From: Halorhodospira neutriphila
GTDB taxonomy: Bacteria; Pseudomonadota; Gammaproteobacteria; Nitrococcales; Halorhodospiraceae
Length of the DNA: 47,240 nucleotides
Reading direction: 5' to 3'
NCBI RefSeq assembly: GCF_016584055.1
Contig: NZ_NRSH01000002.1
Location: 1 to 47,240, forward strand
The notes below the pieces were generated by a model. It worked only from the letters and a program-made list of their open reading frames with translations. It was not told the origin of the DNA and ran no database searches. Shown one piece after another: positions 30,572 through 37,945 of this stretch. Numbering within the stretch: the first letter of the stretch is position 1; each line of letters opens with the position of its first letter. Both the position numbers and the translations under genes were made by a program.

Positions 30572-31531
30572 ATGCCGGGGCCCGATCTGCTCTGCCACAC
30601 CGAGGCCAGCCCGCCGGAGCACGGCGGCGCCTGGGCGAGCGAGCCCACGTCGGCGGAGGCCAGCTACGCCCGCTTCCGGCGCAATGCGCCGGCGCCCCCG
30701 GCGCTGGGCGGCGCCCACCCGGCCAAGCGCGTATCGCGGCAGCTAAAGCACCAGTACCGCCTCATCCGGGCGCTGGAGCCCGGCGTGATCGCCGGCCTCG
30801 ACCCCGAGTTCCTGCACCAGTACCGGGTCAACCTGCGCCGCAGCCGGGCGATCGGCGAGTCCGTGCTGGCCGTGGTCAAGGTGCCGGGCCTCAAGGGGGC
30901 GCTCAAGGGCCTCAAGCGGCGCGCCCAGGCGACCAGCGACCTGCGGGACCTGGACGTCTTCCTGGCCTCGCTTGCCCAGCAACAGACGCCCCTGGCCCCC
31001 ACCGCGCAGCCGGCCCTGCAGCGCTGGCTGAGCGCCCGCCGGGAGGCCGCGCATCAGGCGCTCTGCGAGCAGCTCTCGCAGGGCGCCTACGCCGAGGAGA
31101 TGCACGCCTGGCGGGCCTTCCTCAGCTCCAAGGGGTTCCGAAAGCGCTTGCGGAAGCTGACCTCAAAACGCGTCCAGGCGGTGCTGGCCAAGCGCCTCAC
31201 GCAGCACAACCGGGACCTGGCATCGCTCAGCGCCGCCAGCCCCGACGGGGCGCTGCACGAGCTGCGCAAGGGCGTCAAGCGCATCCGCTACCTGAGCGAG
31301 CTGCACCCCAAGCGCCACCGCGAGTTGCTGGCCCGCCTGAAGCAGCGCCAGACCCTGCTGGGCGAGTTCCAGGACCTGTGCACCTGGCAGGCCTGGATCG
31401 CGGGCTTCGTGGGCGAGCTCGGCGATGCCCCCGCCCAACGGGCGGAGTGCGACCGCTGGCTGGCCGAGCTCGAGCAGCAGAAGCAGGCGCTGCGCCAGCG
31501 CATCATGGACTTACCGCCCTGCGCCCTGTAG
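30572..31531 (+). CDS. CHAD domain protein
   Basis: A 319-residue helical protein with a CHAD domain, recognised by conserved histidine/arginine helices: EFLHQYRVNLRRSRAI near residues 87-102, and ALHELRKGVKRIRYLSEL near 230. CHAD domains bind polyphosphate and locate to polyphosphate granules. No CYTH (triphosphatase) domain is attached. The first ~45 residues are disordered-looking. There is a 31-bp gap to the methyltransferase-HNH gene on the same strand, so they may be cotranscribed, though no functional link is known to me. Confidence 0.85.
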   Translation: MPGPDLLCHTEASPPEHGGAWASEPTSAEASYARFRRNAPAPPALGGAHPAKRVSRQLKHQYRLIRALEPGVIAGLDPEFLHQYRVNLRRSRAIGESVLAVVKVPGLKGALKGLKRRAQATSDLRDLDVFLASLAQQQTPLAPTAQPALQRWLSARREAAHQALCEQLSQGAYAEEMHAWRAFLSSKGFRKRLRKLTSKRVQAVLAKRLTQHNRDLASLSAASPDGALHELRKGVKRIRYLSELHPKRHRELLARLKQRQTLLGEFQDLCTWQAWIAGFVGELGDAPAQRAECDRWLAELEQQKQALRQRIMDLPPCAL

Positions 31532-31562: not shown

Positions 31563-33320
31563 ATGCAGGACGGCAAGCGAGACCCGGCGATCCGCTGGTA
31601 CGACGAGCACGCCGAGCGCGTCGCCGGCAACTACGAGTCGCTGTCCTTCGCCGACGTCCACAACTGGCTCATCTACCGCCTGCCCCCGCCGGGCGAGAGC
31701 ACGATCCTCGACGTCGGCGCCGGCTCCGGGCGCGACGCCGCCTGGCTCGCCGAGCGCGGCCACGAGGTGGTCGCCGTCGAGCCCGCCACGGCCCTGCGCC
31801 GCGAGGCCGCCGAGCGCCACCCCCACCCGCGGATCCGCTGGCTCGACGACCGCCTGCCGGGCCTGGAGCAGGTCCACCGGCTGGGGCTGGGCTTCGACGT
31901 CATCCTGCTGAGCGCCGTCTGGATGCACCTCCCCGAGGGGCAGCGGCCCCGCGCCTTCCGCAAGCTCATCACCCTGCTCAAGCCCGGCGGCCTGCTCGCC
32001 CTCACCCTCCGCCTCGGCCCGGCGGAGCCGGAGCGCGGCCTGCGGGCCGTCTCGGTCGCCGAGCTCCAGCAGCTCGCCGCCGCGCACGGGGCGTACGTCG
32101 AGCACGTCAGCGAGAGTCCCGACGCCCTGGGCCGCGCCGAGGTCTCCTGGGCCGAGGTGGCCATCCGGCTGCCGGACGACGGCACCGGCGCCCTGCCCCT
32201 GCTGCGGCACATCATCCTCAACGACGACAAGAGCGCCACCTACAAGCTGGCGCTGCTGCGCTGCGCCTGCCGCGCCGCCGACGGCATGGACGGCCTCGCC
32301 GTAGCCGCGGAGGACGGCGACGCGGAGAGCCGCGTGGAGCTGCCGCTGGGCCTCGTCGCCCTGATCTGGGTCCGGCTCTTCCTGCCCCTCGTCCGCCACC
32401 GCCTGCCGCAGCTCCCGCCCCACGACGGCACGCCCCGCGGCCTCGGCTTCGCCGGCGACGGCTTCCGCAAGCTCCTCGAGCTCCAGGTCGCCCCGGAGGA
32501 GCTGCGCATCGGCGTGCGCTTCAGCGGCGACCGGGCGCGGGCCCTCTCCCTCGCCCTGCGCGAGGCGGCGGAGACCATCCGCAAGATGCCCGCCCACTAC
32601 ACCACCTTCCCCCAGGGCGGCCAGGTCTTCCACGCCGTGCGCGCCCGCGGGGTCCGCGCGCAGGACGAGGCGATCCTCGACGCCCCCTTCCTGTGGCGCT
32701 ACGGCGCCTTCCGCGTGCCGCAGCCGCTGTGGCGGGCCCTGCAGCGGTTCAGCGTCTGGGTGGAGCCGGCGCTGGTCACCGAGTGGAAGCGCCTCATGGC
32801 CCACTACGCCGAGCGCCAGGGCCGAGCGCTGACGACCGGGACGATGGAGCAGGCCCTCGCCTGGCGCGAGCCGCAGCGCGACGTGCGCCTCGTCCGGGAG
32901 CGCATCGAGGCCCTGCGGGCGGCCGGCGAGCCGATCCACTGCGTCTGGAGCGGCCGCCGGCTGCGCCGGGATGCCCTCGACGTCGACCACTGCATCCCGT
33001 GGGCCGCCTGGCCCTGCGACGACCTGTGGAACCTGGTACCCGCCAGCCCCCGCGTGAACAGCGACAAGGGGGCGCGGCTGCCGGACGCGGCCACGCTCCA
33101 GGAGGCCGAGGACCGCCTGAAGGCCTGGTGGGAGCGCGCCTGGCAGCGCGCGCCGCAGCCGACGCTGGCCGAGCGCTTCGAGCGCGAGGCCGTGGCGACG
33201 CTACCCGGGCTGCGGGAGGCCGAGGCGAAGGACCTGGACAGCGTCTTCTCCGCCCTGGACCTGCGCCGGATCCGGCTCAAGCAGGACCAGCAGATCCCGG
33301 AGTGGTGCCGGAAGCGATAG
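31563..33320 (+). CDS. SAM methyltransferase - HNH endonuclease fusion protein
   Basis: A 585-residue two-enzyme protein. Residues 1-~210 are a class I SAM methyltransferase: motif I LDVGAGSGRDAAWL, then VAVEPA, and VILLSAVWMHL with LKPGGLLALTLR. A middle region (~210-450) includes LPLGLVALIWVRLFLPL and MPAHYTTFPQGGQVF, of a type I have seen alongside HNH domains. Near 455-505 is an HNH nuclease: a zinc-finger-like start (IHCVWSGRRL), DVDHCIPW as the catalytic His pair, and NLVPASPRVNSDKG. All HNH residues look intact. The target is unknown: DNA modification/restriction is plausible, and small-molecule or protein methylation cannot be excluded. The ATG at 31563 has a GGGACGAG site. Confidence 0.82.
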   Translation: MQDGKRDPAIRWYDEHAERVAGNYESLSFADVHNWLIYRLPPPGESTILDVGAGSGRDAAWLAERGHEVVAVEPATALRREAAERHPHPRIRWLDDRLPGLEQVHRLGLGFDVILLSAVWMHLPEGQRPRAFRKLITLLKPGGLLALTLRLGPAEPERGLRAVSVAELQQLAAAHGAYVEHVSESPDALGRAEVSWAEVAIRLPDDGTGALPLLRHIILNDDKSATYKLALLRCACRAADGMDGLAVAAEDGDAESRVELPLGLVALIWVRLFLPLVRHRLPQLPPHDGTPRGLGFAGDGFRKLLELQVAPEELRIGVRFSGDRARALSLALREAAETIRKMPAHYTTFPQGGQVFHAVRARGVRAQDEAILDAPFLWRYGAFRVPQPLWRALQRFSVWVEPALVTEWKRLMAHYAERQGRALTTGTMEQALAWREPQRDVRLVRERIEALRAAGEPIHCVWSGRRLRRDALDVDHCIPWAAWPCDDLWNLVPASPRVNSDKGARLPDAATLQEAEDRLKAWWERAWQRAPQPTLAERFEREAVATLPGLREAEAKDLDSVFSALDLRRIRLKQDQQIPEWCRKR

Positions 33321-34736: not shown

Positions 34737-36287
34737 TTATTGCGTTGCGCTTCGACCCACGAGATCTTGTGGGTGCGCGCTCGGCAACGTGATCCTCGGG
34801 CCGGCCCGCGCATCAGGCCGATCCGGGTCACCCCTGGAGCCCCGCCCAGGGGATCGCCGCGCCGCCTCGGGTGGGTGGCACGGCTTTCGCTCGGCGAAGC
34901 GCCGGAGCGCCTCACCGAGGACAGCACGCCGGCGGCGGCGCGGGTTCCCCATGACGGGGCAAGAACGTCTCGCCCCGAGGTTCCGGGCCGCGTTGACGTC
35001 GGCGTGCATCCGGCGACCGCAGCAGCGGCACCGGAACTCGGACTGGCTGCGGCGGTTGGCCCGCTCGACCCAGCCGCAGTGCGAGCAGGTCTGCGAGCTG
35101 TAGGCGGCGTTGACCTCGGTGTGCGTCACGCCGTAGCGCTCCTCGAGGTCCCGGAGCTTGGCCCGGAGGACGCCGCGCCCGCAGTTGGTGAGGAGCCGGT
35201 TCATCCGCCGCGACAGCCCCGGCATCCGGAAGTCCAGCCGCTCGACCGTCAGGTGGGCGGGCCGGTGCAGGTACACGAGGCGGTTCAGGATGCGGTTGAT
35301 CTCCGTGCGCAGCCAGCCACGCAGCTGCCGCACGGCCTTATCGTAGCGCCTCGAGCGCACCTTCAGCCCGGCCTTCTGCCGGTGCCGGGCGATGCGCGTG
35401 ATGCGCCGGTCCAGCCGCTCCAGGTGCTGCAGCGCGCCCCGCCCCATCCGGTCGCCGGCGTCGGTGGCGATCAGCGTCGACAGGCCGAAGTCGATCGCGA
35501 GGTCGTCGCGCAGCGGGGTGTAGGCCGCCCGCTGCGCGGCGAACGGCGCCGAGACGTCCGTGACGACGCCCACGCTGATCCGTCCGTCCCGGTCCTCGTT
35601 GACCTGGACCGTCCGGCAGCGCTGGCCCGCCCGCCGCTCGAAGTACGGGTGGGACTGGAGCGGGATCTCGATCCGCCGGCCGTGCTCGAGCGTGCCCAGG
35701 CGCAGCCAGAGCGGGAACGCCGAGGCGCTCGCCGCGCTGGACAAGCTCGCCTGCCGGCGGTCGATCACCATGTTCACCCGCTTGAACGACGGCCGCCGGT
35801 GCCGGCCGAGCACATGCCGCATGATCCGCCGCGCCAGGTCGCGCACCGCGTCCGGGACCGGCTCGCCGGTGTCCGGCATGACGACGTCCCGGCACCGATC
35901 GAACCAGGCGCCGGCCTTGTTGACCACGTGCAGCATGTGCCGCGTGCGCTCGTCGAAGCCCTCGTGCCGGGCGACGAGCTCGGCGAACTCGTTCTGGCGG
36001 TTGGCGAGGAACGAGCTCAGCGTGCCGACGACCTGGTAGCGCACCATCTGCAGGCGCTGAGCGCCAATCTCCGCCTTGGCCGCAGCGACGCCGGGCGCGG
36101 CGGCCTCTTGGGCCGCCGGCAGGTTCTTGCGGAAGCCGCCGTCGCGGAAGAAGCGCGTCCACTGGTCCGCGGCCACCGCCCGCGCCGCCCGGCGCCAGGC
36201 GCGCAGCAGCTCGCGCACGGCGGCGGCCTTGCCGGCGTTCATCGCCGTGGGCAGCAGGTCGGTGCGGTGGATGGCCGTGGCTGTCAT
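34737..36287 (-). CDS. tnpB: TnpB family RNA-guided nuclease (IS605 OrfB type)
   Basis: A 516-residue TnpB. The split RuvC domain is intact: Asp in AIDFGLSTL (about residue 264), Glu in TVERLDF (about 348), and Asp in DVNAARN (about 430). Between the last two is a zinc ribbon with two CxxC pairs (CSHCG, CRCC). An Arg-rich tail of ~85 residues follows, which may overlap the guide RNA (omegaRNA) that in this family runs from the tnpB 3' end to the element's end. All catalytic residues suggest a working guided nuclease, not a dead repressor type. The start at 36287 is five bases after the zinc-ribbon gene's stop, so the two are coupled. The N-terminal ~200 residues are longer than in compact TnpBs. 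Confidence 0.88.
   Translation of the reverse strand: MTATAIHRTDLLPTAMNAGKAAAVRELLRAWRRAARAVAADQWTRFFRDGGFRKNLPAAQEAAAPGVAAAKAEIGAQRLQMVRYQVVGTLSSFLANRQNEFAELVARHEGFDERTRHMLHVVNKAGAWFDRCRDVVMPDTGEPVPDAVRDLARRIMRHVLGRHRRPSFKRVNMVIDRRQASLSSAASASAFPLWLRLGTLEHGRRIEIPLQSHPYFERRAGQRCRTVQVNEDRDGRISVGVVTDVSAPFAAQRAAYTPLRDDLAIDFGLSTLIATDAGDRMGRGALQHLERLDRRITRIARHRQKAGLKVRSRRYDKAVRQLRGWLRTEINRILNRLVYLHRPAHLTVERLDFRMPGLSRRMNRLLTNCGRGVLRAKLRDLEERYGVTHTEVNAAYSSQTCSHCGWVERANRRSQSEFRCRCCGRRMHADVNAARNLGARRSCPVMGNPRRRRRAVLGEALRRFAERKPCHPPEAARRSPGRGSRGDPDRPDARAGPRITLPSAHPQDLVGRSATQ
34756..34773. repeat. Imperfect palindrome near the tnpB 3' end
   Basis: CCCACgAGATCTtGTGGG has an AGATCT core and five-base outer arms, with one mismatch pair. 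It lies inside the last codons of tnpB, where IS605-type right-end hairpins and the omegaRNA scaffold usually sit. Confidence 0.4.
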
Positions 36288-36291
36288 GCGG

Positions 36292-36795
36292 TCAGCGTCC
36301 GGAATCATCGTCGCCCGCGTGCTCCGGGCACGCGGGTAGGTCACCATCCACGTCGGTTTCGGCCATCTCCACGACCCTGCGCAGCACCGGATCGTCGCTG
36401 GCCATCATCCGGCGGATCCGGTGCGACAGATGCCAGGCGGTCCGGTACTGGAGGCCGAGCCGGAAGCCGAGCTGCCGGGCCGAGATGCCCTGGGATGAGC
36501 ACGCCATCAGGAACATCGCGGTCAGCCAGGTCCGGACCGGCAGATGAGAGGCCGCCATCGGCGTACCGGCGCGCGCCGAGGTGGCCCGGCCGCAGTCGCG
36601 GCAGTGGAACAGCATCTTGCGCCCCGGCAGCCGGCGCGCGTTGCCGACGGAGCCGCACCAGCGGCAGACTGGGCCTTCCGGCCAGCGCGCCGACAGGAAC
36701 AACACCTCAGCATGCGCCTCATCCGGCACCAGATCCAGGAAGCCTTGCAGGGTCAGAGGGTCATGCACCATACCCATCAAGATAGAGGGCATCAT
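36292..36795 (-). CDS. IS1595-type transposase N-terminal zinc-ribbon/HTH protein (lacks DDE domain)
   Basis: A 167-residue protein matching only the front of IS1595-family transposases: the opening helix (LQGFLDLVPDEAHAEVLF), a zinc ribbon CRWCGS...CRDCG with the GTPMAASHLPVRTWL region, and a helix-turn-helix with QLGFRLGLQYRTAWHLSHRI. It stops just after the first catalytic position, and there the Asp of the usual VEVDETY motif is Ala (VEMAETDVDG). No DDE domain follows, so it cannot be an active transposase; DNA binding is the only visible role. Three candidate starts (GTG 36798, ATG 36795, ATG 36771) exist; I chose the first ATG. Tight coupling to tnpB suggests the pair is kept together. 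Confidence 0.75.
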   Translation of the reverse strand: MMPSILMGMVHDPLTLQGFLDLVPDEAHAEVLFLSARWPEGPVCRWCGSVGNARRLPGRKMLFHCRDCGRATSARAGTPMAASHLPVRTWLTAMFLMACSSQGISARQLGFRLGLQYRTAWHLSHRIRRMMASDDPVLRRVVEMAETDVDGDLPACPEHAGDDDSGR

Positions 36796-36860
36796 CACCA
36801 GAAAGCAATAGCTCCGAGGAAGAATACCCGCTCACTGCGGACAGCCAAGGAGAGACAAGG

Positions 36861-37785: not shown

Positions 37786-37872
37786 GCGCCAGGGGTCCAC
37801 CAAGGGACCTGCCCTGGAGGGCTCGAGATCTATCGGTAGGGAGTAGAGTAATGGGTATCGAGGAGGGATACT

Positions 37873-37945
37873 GGAGCGGGTGATGGGAATCGAACCCACA
37901 TCGCCAGCGTGGGAAGCTGGTGCTCTACCATTGAGCTACACCCGC
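37873..37945 (-). tRNA. tRNA-Gly (CCC anticodon)
   Basis: Read on the minus strand: acceptor stem GCGGGTG / CACCCGC, D-arm with AGCTCAATGGTAGAGC, anticodon arm CCAGC-TTCCCAC-GCTGG with anticodon CCC, T-arm with GGTTCGATTCC, discriminator U and an encoded CCA. The 73-base span with CCA fits glycine tRNAs. It lies between nsrR and thiS with no other gene in the gap. Confidence 0.93.

Follow-up and report, generated by a model that had tools for sequence, protein, structure and literature searches.

A fusion of a class I methyltransferase and a Cas9-type HNH nuclease in Halorhodospira neutriphila as a putative single-gene defence effector

What could be the function of a single polypeptide that joins a methyltransferase to a nuclease? 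This question is raised by a gene (gene position 31563–33320, forward strand) in a 47,240-nucleotide stretch of the Halorhodospira neutriphila contig NZ_NRSH01000002.1, which was analysed as a whole and is called the window here. The gene encodes a protein of 585 aa plus stop. An in-frame ATG is located upstream at position 31425; close relatives start at the residue encoded at position 31563 instead. The first-pass annotation had described a class I SAM-dependent methyltransferase (MTase) and an HNH nuclease with intact active sites in this protein. It had compared the pair with the joined modification and cutting of restriction systems and had proposed a stand-alone enzyme of defence or nucleic-acid repair.

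Both domains were confirmed using Pfam, with matches above the gathering score. The MTase domain (about residues 6–203, 31578–32171) matched Methyltransf_25 at residues 48–143 (E-value 1.1e-13; 52 bits vs. a cut-off of 27) and contains the SAM-binding motif I, ILDVGAGSGRD (residues 48–58, 31704–31736), so that both profile and motif place it among class I SAM-dependent MTases of the Methyltransf_25 type. The nuclease domain (about residues 455–530, 32925–33152) matched HNH_4 at residues 460–507 (E-value 3.7e-7; 30.5 bits vs. a cut-off of 22) and was attributed to the HNH_4 nucleases, since the catalytic residues are also in place, namely D475-H476 (32985–32990), where H476 is the presumed general base, and N490, N499 and K502 (33030–33068). 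Hence both active sites are intact, as had been claimed. The nuclease had been placed 240 residues behind the MTase; the order is right and the figure approximate, as the distance to the start of the HNH match is about 257 residues when counted from the last residue of the MTase fold (203) and about 310 when counted from that of the MTase core match (148 to 460). Modeling of the full-length protein using AlphaFold2 with an alignment of 77 sequences led to a model with a pLDDT of 92.3 and a pTM of 0.82, in which residues 531–585 (33153–33317) form a helical tail at the C-terminus.

The middle region (about residues 204–430, 32172–32852) is mostly helical, and Pfam revealed no match between Methyltransf_25 and HNH_4 in the window protein. 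The two motifs singled out earlier in this region are located at about residues 260–273 and 342–352, within a conserved part. Together with the HNH domain, the middle region is homologous to a stand-alone cyanobacterial protein (hhalign probability 99.6, E-value 1.6e-24, 284 columns), which indicates that the two exist as one module. A model of this module alone had a pLDDT of 94.6 and a pTM of 0.92. The closest solved folds of the predicted HNH domain were Cas9 HNH domains (8d2k: Z 7.0, rmsd 3.8, 111 aligned residues). The fold search with the middle region, run jointly with HNH, gave no convincing match for the former, and a comparison of the sequence profile of both with the PDB found only a marginal match to Cas9 HNH. 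A ScoMcrA-like fold of the middle region was rejected, since Z 5.9 at an rmsd of 6.7 lies in the noise range. Likewise, two nucleases adjacent to unfused MTases were not accepted as relatives of the middle region: the one in locus L183 gave a weak BLAST match and an hhalign match of only about 120 columns around HNH (probability 57), and the one in L181 carries an HNH domain of another family, with no relation found. In cyanobacterial plasmids, the stand-alone gene is preceded by a gene for 80 aa (L043:7774–8013, L050:7726–7965).

To evaluate the family, 14 full-length relatives were aligned and used as the query in a scan of a genome collection, which yielded 481 relatives. The best 80 of these were nearly all full-length fusions, 43–83% identical, and the frame was uninterrupted over the match in 77 of them. 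In the conservation alignment (77 sequences: the window and 76 others), the residues G52, G54, G56, R57 and D58 of motif I and, beyond it, R130, R133, R191 and W196 were invariant in the MTase domain. The HNH core was invariant at C460, W462, D475, N490, N499 and K502, with H476 retained in 76 of the 77 sequences. In this alignment, the conservation of both active sites is far beyond chance, and the MTase, middle and HNH regions are roughly equally conserved. According to record titles and tree labels, the hosts of the fusion belong to Pseudomonadota (alpha, beta and gamma), Acidobacteriota, Nitrospirota and Thermodesulfobacteriota; further records are labelled Cyanobacteria, Roseiflexaceae and Actinomycetes, and since several relatives are metagenome-assembled genomes, such labels can be wrong. 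In a sample spread evenly over the phylum, the fusion was present in 15 of 398 genomes (its own included) and the MTase only in at least 20 more. Within the genus of the window, several members lack the fusion or have it only in broken or split form, at differing loci, and the copy in genome G005 has no middle region. This patchy spread over many phyla, with broken copies in the genus, was counted in favour of a defence role. A scan of viral contigs for exact peptides found nothing, and an alignment scan of viral contigs revealed eight loci, five with the MTase and three with matches to the HNH region only.

The free-standing location noted earlier was found to be the rule. A same-strand gene lay within 60 bp upstream in 11 of 70 loci and within 100 bp downstream in 12 of 70, so the fusion gene mostly stands alone, and no fixed operon partner was seen in most of these loci. 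It is usually a monocistronic accessory gene. An exception that recurs is an HNH_2 gene (about 304 aa), which is located upstream in nine alphaproteobacterial loci and mostly touches the start of the fusion. This gene lies directly 5′ of the fusion in loci of the Sphingomonas/Azospirillum type (L095:9088–9990 and similar), and the ends sometimes overlap, which suggests translational coupling. Plasmid copies also stand alone, often amid IS elements; one is located beside McrBC and toxin–antitoxin genes, and others have ordinary surroundings. The carriage on plasmids in the company of IS elements, McrBC and toxin–antitoxin genes was counted in favour of a defence role.

The MTase is also found without the fused HNH domain. 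In the order to which the window belongs, solo MTase genes adjoin a gene for a protein of about 1093 aa, whose homologues (L184, L189 and L161) contain PLDc and SF2 helicase domains and, in L184, also DUF3427. This domain order is that of SauUSI, an ATP-dependent enzyme that cleaves DNA containing 5mC or 5hmC (PMC3874153; PMC7913695). A reverse search in 59 relatives found 11 places with a close homologue of the 1093-aa protein, with an MTase or MTase fragment next door in eight, a fused one in two and a contig edge in one. Thus, the MTase was adjacent or fused to the SauUSI-like protein in 10 of 10 decidable cases among the relatives of the window. Distant SauUSI-like homologues (about 38%) in G013 and G027 were without the MTase. 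The two fused cases are L214 (3176–6073, reverse strand) and L215 (830–2686, reverse strand), where an in-frame fusion places a diverged MTase at the N-terminus of the SauUSI-like PLDc–helicase protein. The fusion of the MTase with HNH itself adjoins distant SauUSI-like homologues in L056, L103 and L130. Downstream of other solo MTases, an HNH_2 or HNH nuclease gene follows within about 40 bp (L181, L183 and L186). This linkage to SauUSI-like and HNH nucleases was counted in favour of a defence role, and since unfused MTases stand beside or are fused to such varied nucleases, the MTase appears to be reusable, with nucleases as its exchangeable partners.

In prophages (phi458, L136), the gene of a putative membrane protein is followed by the MTase gene (L042:2336–3519, L136:9308–10576); in phi458 the cassette is near the integrase. 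This two-gene cassette was present in 29 of 5426 E. coli genomes and was complete in each of them. A related membrane-type N-terminal domain is fused to the MTase in L046, L182 and L185, and the first of these (L046:4221–12585) lies inside a Rhizobium dndBCDE cluster. DndB or PAPS-reductase genes are near L187 and L185, and a PAPS-reductase-like gene was recognized by eye in the phage loci L132 and L133. The dnd and PAPS-reductase neighbours and a TPMT match prompted the idea of S-methylation of phosphorothioate DNA, which was set aside as speculation. In a tree of 89 MTase domains, fused and solo forms were interleaved with 13 label changes, at least 10 of them forced by well-supported branches; these figures overestimate the number of independent swaps, since the solo rows include broken fusions and fragments at contig edges. 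Many of the MTases that have no nuclease neighbour fall into an outer clade of 11 solo rows. The occurrence of certain solo MTases as orphans amid ordinary genes was counted against a defence role.

Besides defence by restriction-like cutting, three explanations were weighed, which rank in the order of built-in restraint of a toxic nuclease, classical restriction–modification and housekeeping. According to the first, the HNH domain would be toxic, and the MTase domain, whether it acts as a catalyst or not, would block it until loss of SAM or a phage trigger led to abortive infection. The predominance of single-gene loci without a partner would suit such an arrangement, as would the association of unfused MTases with different effectors, including the putative membrane protein of prophages. 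However, the catalytic-type residues of the MTase are conserved as strongly as those of HNH, which suggests real methyl transfer, and MTase-only copies persist without a nuclease. We therefore regard restraint of a toxin as unlikely.

The second explanation is a type IIG-like enzyme, the MTase part of which would methylate a host site and the HNH part of which would cut the same site if unmethylated. Both activities are predicted for one polypeptide and both are conserved, as this would require. N6A and N4C DNA MTases, however, need the motif [DNS]PP[YFW], and C5 DNA MTases need a catalytic cysteine. The motif IV [DNS]PP[YFW] was found in none of the 77 sequences; the stretch at its position is SAVWMH, like that of small-molecule and RNA enzymes. 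A PC motif with the catalytic cysteine was not found in the window MTase domain, since the first cysteine of the protein is residue 234, behind this domain, and therefore there is no nucleophile of a C5-MTase. The closest fold of the predicted MTase model (residues 6–206) was 3e23 (Z 22.7, rmsd 2.4, 189 aligned residues), and other matches were ChlM, UbiG, METTL6, CmoM and NTMT1; the top matches among those listed act on small molecules, tRNA/RNA or protein termini. Grouping with small-molecule or protein enzymes had been named in advance as speaking against the initial hypothesis, and by motif and fold it was partly found, with RNA MTases among the matches as well. As judged from these motifs and the predicted fold, the MTase does not belong to the classical DNA base methylases. 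The lack of DNA-base-MTase motifs, combined with a fold of the small-molecule, RNA or protein type, makes classical restriction–modification improbable, and Pfam also found no known target-recognition domain. Thus, the mismatch with the classical types that had been pointed out holds; joined modification and cutting in the restriction–modification sense was not borne out, since the MTase sits apart from DNA base MTases.

In the window, the fusion is flanked by a CHAD gene and a cobW gene; TonB-system genes lie upstream, and no defence gene was seen beside the fusion. These housekeeping neighbours were counted against a defence role. The proximity to cobW is shared only with the closest genome (G001), in which two P-loop ATPase-like genes intervene; in G003, G005, G006 and G007, cobW is located either on a different contig or at a long distance from the fusion or its remnants. 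The CHAD-domain gene (30572–31531, forward strand) was found in no other genus member searched. Between cobW and sirB, there is an OrfB/TnpB-type protein with a Cas12f1-like TNB domain (E-value 2.1e-16; 34740–36347, reverse strand), the gene of which overlaps a short IS1595-type zinc-ribbon transposase fragment (36295–36798, reverse strand). The sole tRNA gene of the window is tRNA-Gly (CCC) at 37872–37945 (reverse strand).

Elsewhere in the genus and family, the surroundings are different. In G006, MrcB-like and DUF2357–PDDEXK_7 genes, a McrBC-type pair, precede the fusion, which was counted in favour of a defence role. A fusion remnant lies at a contig end near type I restriction–modification-like genes in G007, and remnants lie among BREX-like and AbiE-like genes in G008, according to a reading mainly by eye that was backed by one Pfam match (DUF6079). 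Relatives often stand amid McrBC, restriction, AbiE, Thoeris-like and similar genes. When neighbours within 10 kb were scanned with PADLOC models (threshold 1e-8) at 80 loci, the 148 near neighbours gave matches to 90 models and the 148 far neighbours to 82, compared with 46 models for 140 control genes taken at random from stretches of the relatives, most of which were models of generic helicases and AAA regulators; these counts are qualitative only, because they are counts of models, many of them redundant, and the control is not taxon-matched. The models matched at the 80 loci included type II and IV restriction endonucleases, AbiE, ThsB, SoFic, Dru, DrmA and pAgo, which, compared with the generic models of the control, was counted in favour of a defence role. 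Near and far genes within 10 kb of the 80 loci did not differ in defence content, which was counted against a defence role. The enrichment near defence genes that had been suggested as a check is therefore qualitatively true of many homologues, which repeatedly lie in defence-rich regions, but neither of the window copy itself nor of the near over the far neighbours. As for the function proposed at the outset, the defence context of many homologues agrees with its defence part, and the repair part found no support. A housekeeping enzyme of nucleic-acid repair or RNA modification is very improbable, since the housekeeping neighbours of the window copy, the resemblance of the MTase fold to tRNA MTases (e.g., CmoM and METTL6) and the mostly ordinary surroundings of the outer solo clade are set against low, patchy presence, broken copies within one genus, plasmid and prophage carriage, and linkage to restriction-type nucleases.

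The occurrence of the fusion in many phyla, its frequent anti-phage neighbours and the presence of its MTase beside different nucleases allow us to assume that it is probably a restriction-type defence protein not described before, a single-gene effector directed against invading DNA. The role against invaders is inferred from these features. The Cas9-type HNH domain would be the cutter, presumably of DNA; its placement on nucleic acid is probably the task of the middle region. The control module that decides what is cut could be the fused class I MTase, which most likely would modify a nucleic acid or nucleotide target, or read a SAM-dependent signal. A link to modified nucleic acid is plausible in view of the SauUSI-like and dnd partners. 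Since the MTase family also pairs with other nucleases, above all SauUSI-like ones, the general unit would be an MTase with an exchangeable nuclease. More tentatively, the family may represent defence systems of a distinct, undescribed class, with a constant class I MTase of non-DNA type that would serve as a sensor or licensing module for an exchangeable effector. The effectors would then be the fused Cas9-like HNH domain, the adjacent or fused SauUSI-like PLD nuclease/helicase, the adjacent HNH_2 protein and the putative membrane protein of the prophages and the dnd cluster, and the target could be RNA, a phage-specific nucleotide or a backbone or sulfur mark rather than an ordinary DNA base.

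If the fusion does act in defence, a one-gene restriction-like enzyme is present in hundreds of genomes and is registered by PADLOC-DB 2.0.0 only with an uninformative mad2 match. The MTase half of this enzyme would be a shared, testable module that connects type IV-like nucleases with prophage cassettes and a dnd cluster, and methylation of a target other than a DNA base could steer a nuclease in immunity. The fusion is a small, confidently modelled single protein in which such steering can be tested.

Among the literature searched, which included few subscription papers, no paper was found that describes the fusion or a link between an MTase and SauUSI-like enzymes. The mad2 model (Mad2, MADS; PDLC04134) matched the window protein at 1e-18. 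At 1e-20 or better, the same model gave matches in 59 of 59 genomes and in 14 of 14 control genomes, and single matches to it are therefore not to be read as MADS; the adjoining genes scanned at the window locus were not mad genes, and membership in MADS was set aside. The defence system PD-lambda-5 contains an MTase domain and was termed a compacted restriction–modification plus Abi system by its authors (Vassallo 2022, PMC9519451). It resembles the fusion, by description, in having an MTase domain; its host strain needed removal of the mrr region (PMC9519451), which suggests to us that it methylates DNA. Type IIG-like enzymes share with the fusion the presence of MTase and nuclease in one chain and differ in the DNA-MTase motifs and any known target-recognition domain, which the window protein lacks. 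HNH domains of the Cas9/IscB type (HNH_4) are the closest in fold, whereas RuvC and guide-RNA-binding domains are absent from the fusion. The stand-alone HNH_4 protein of cyanobacterial plasmids (Tolypothrix, L043; Nostoc, L050) has the same middle region and HNH domain and no MTase. SauUSI is a type IV restriction enzyme with a PLD nuclease, an SF2 ATPase and a C-terminal DUF3427/SRA domain (PMC3874153; PMC7913695) and, as described, no MTase. The window protein is predicted to cut with HNH and contains neither PLDc, SF2 helicase nor DUF3427, nor an SRA match. The likeness lies in the partnership: proteins with the domain order of SauUSI neighbour or fuse with relatives of the window MTase, and this linkage of the MTase and the fusion to SauUSI-like enzymes is the sole tie to type IV restriction that was seen.
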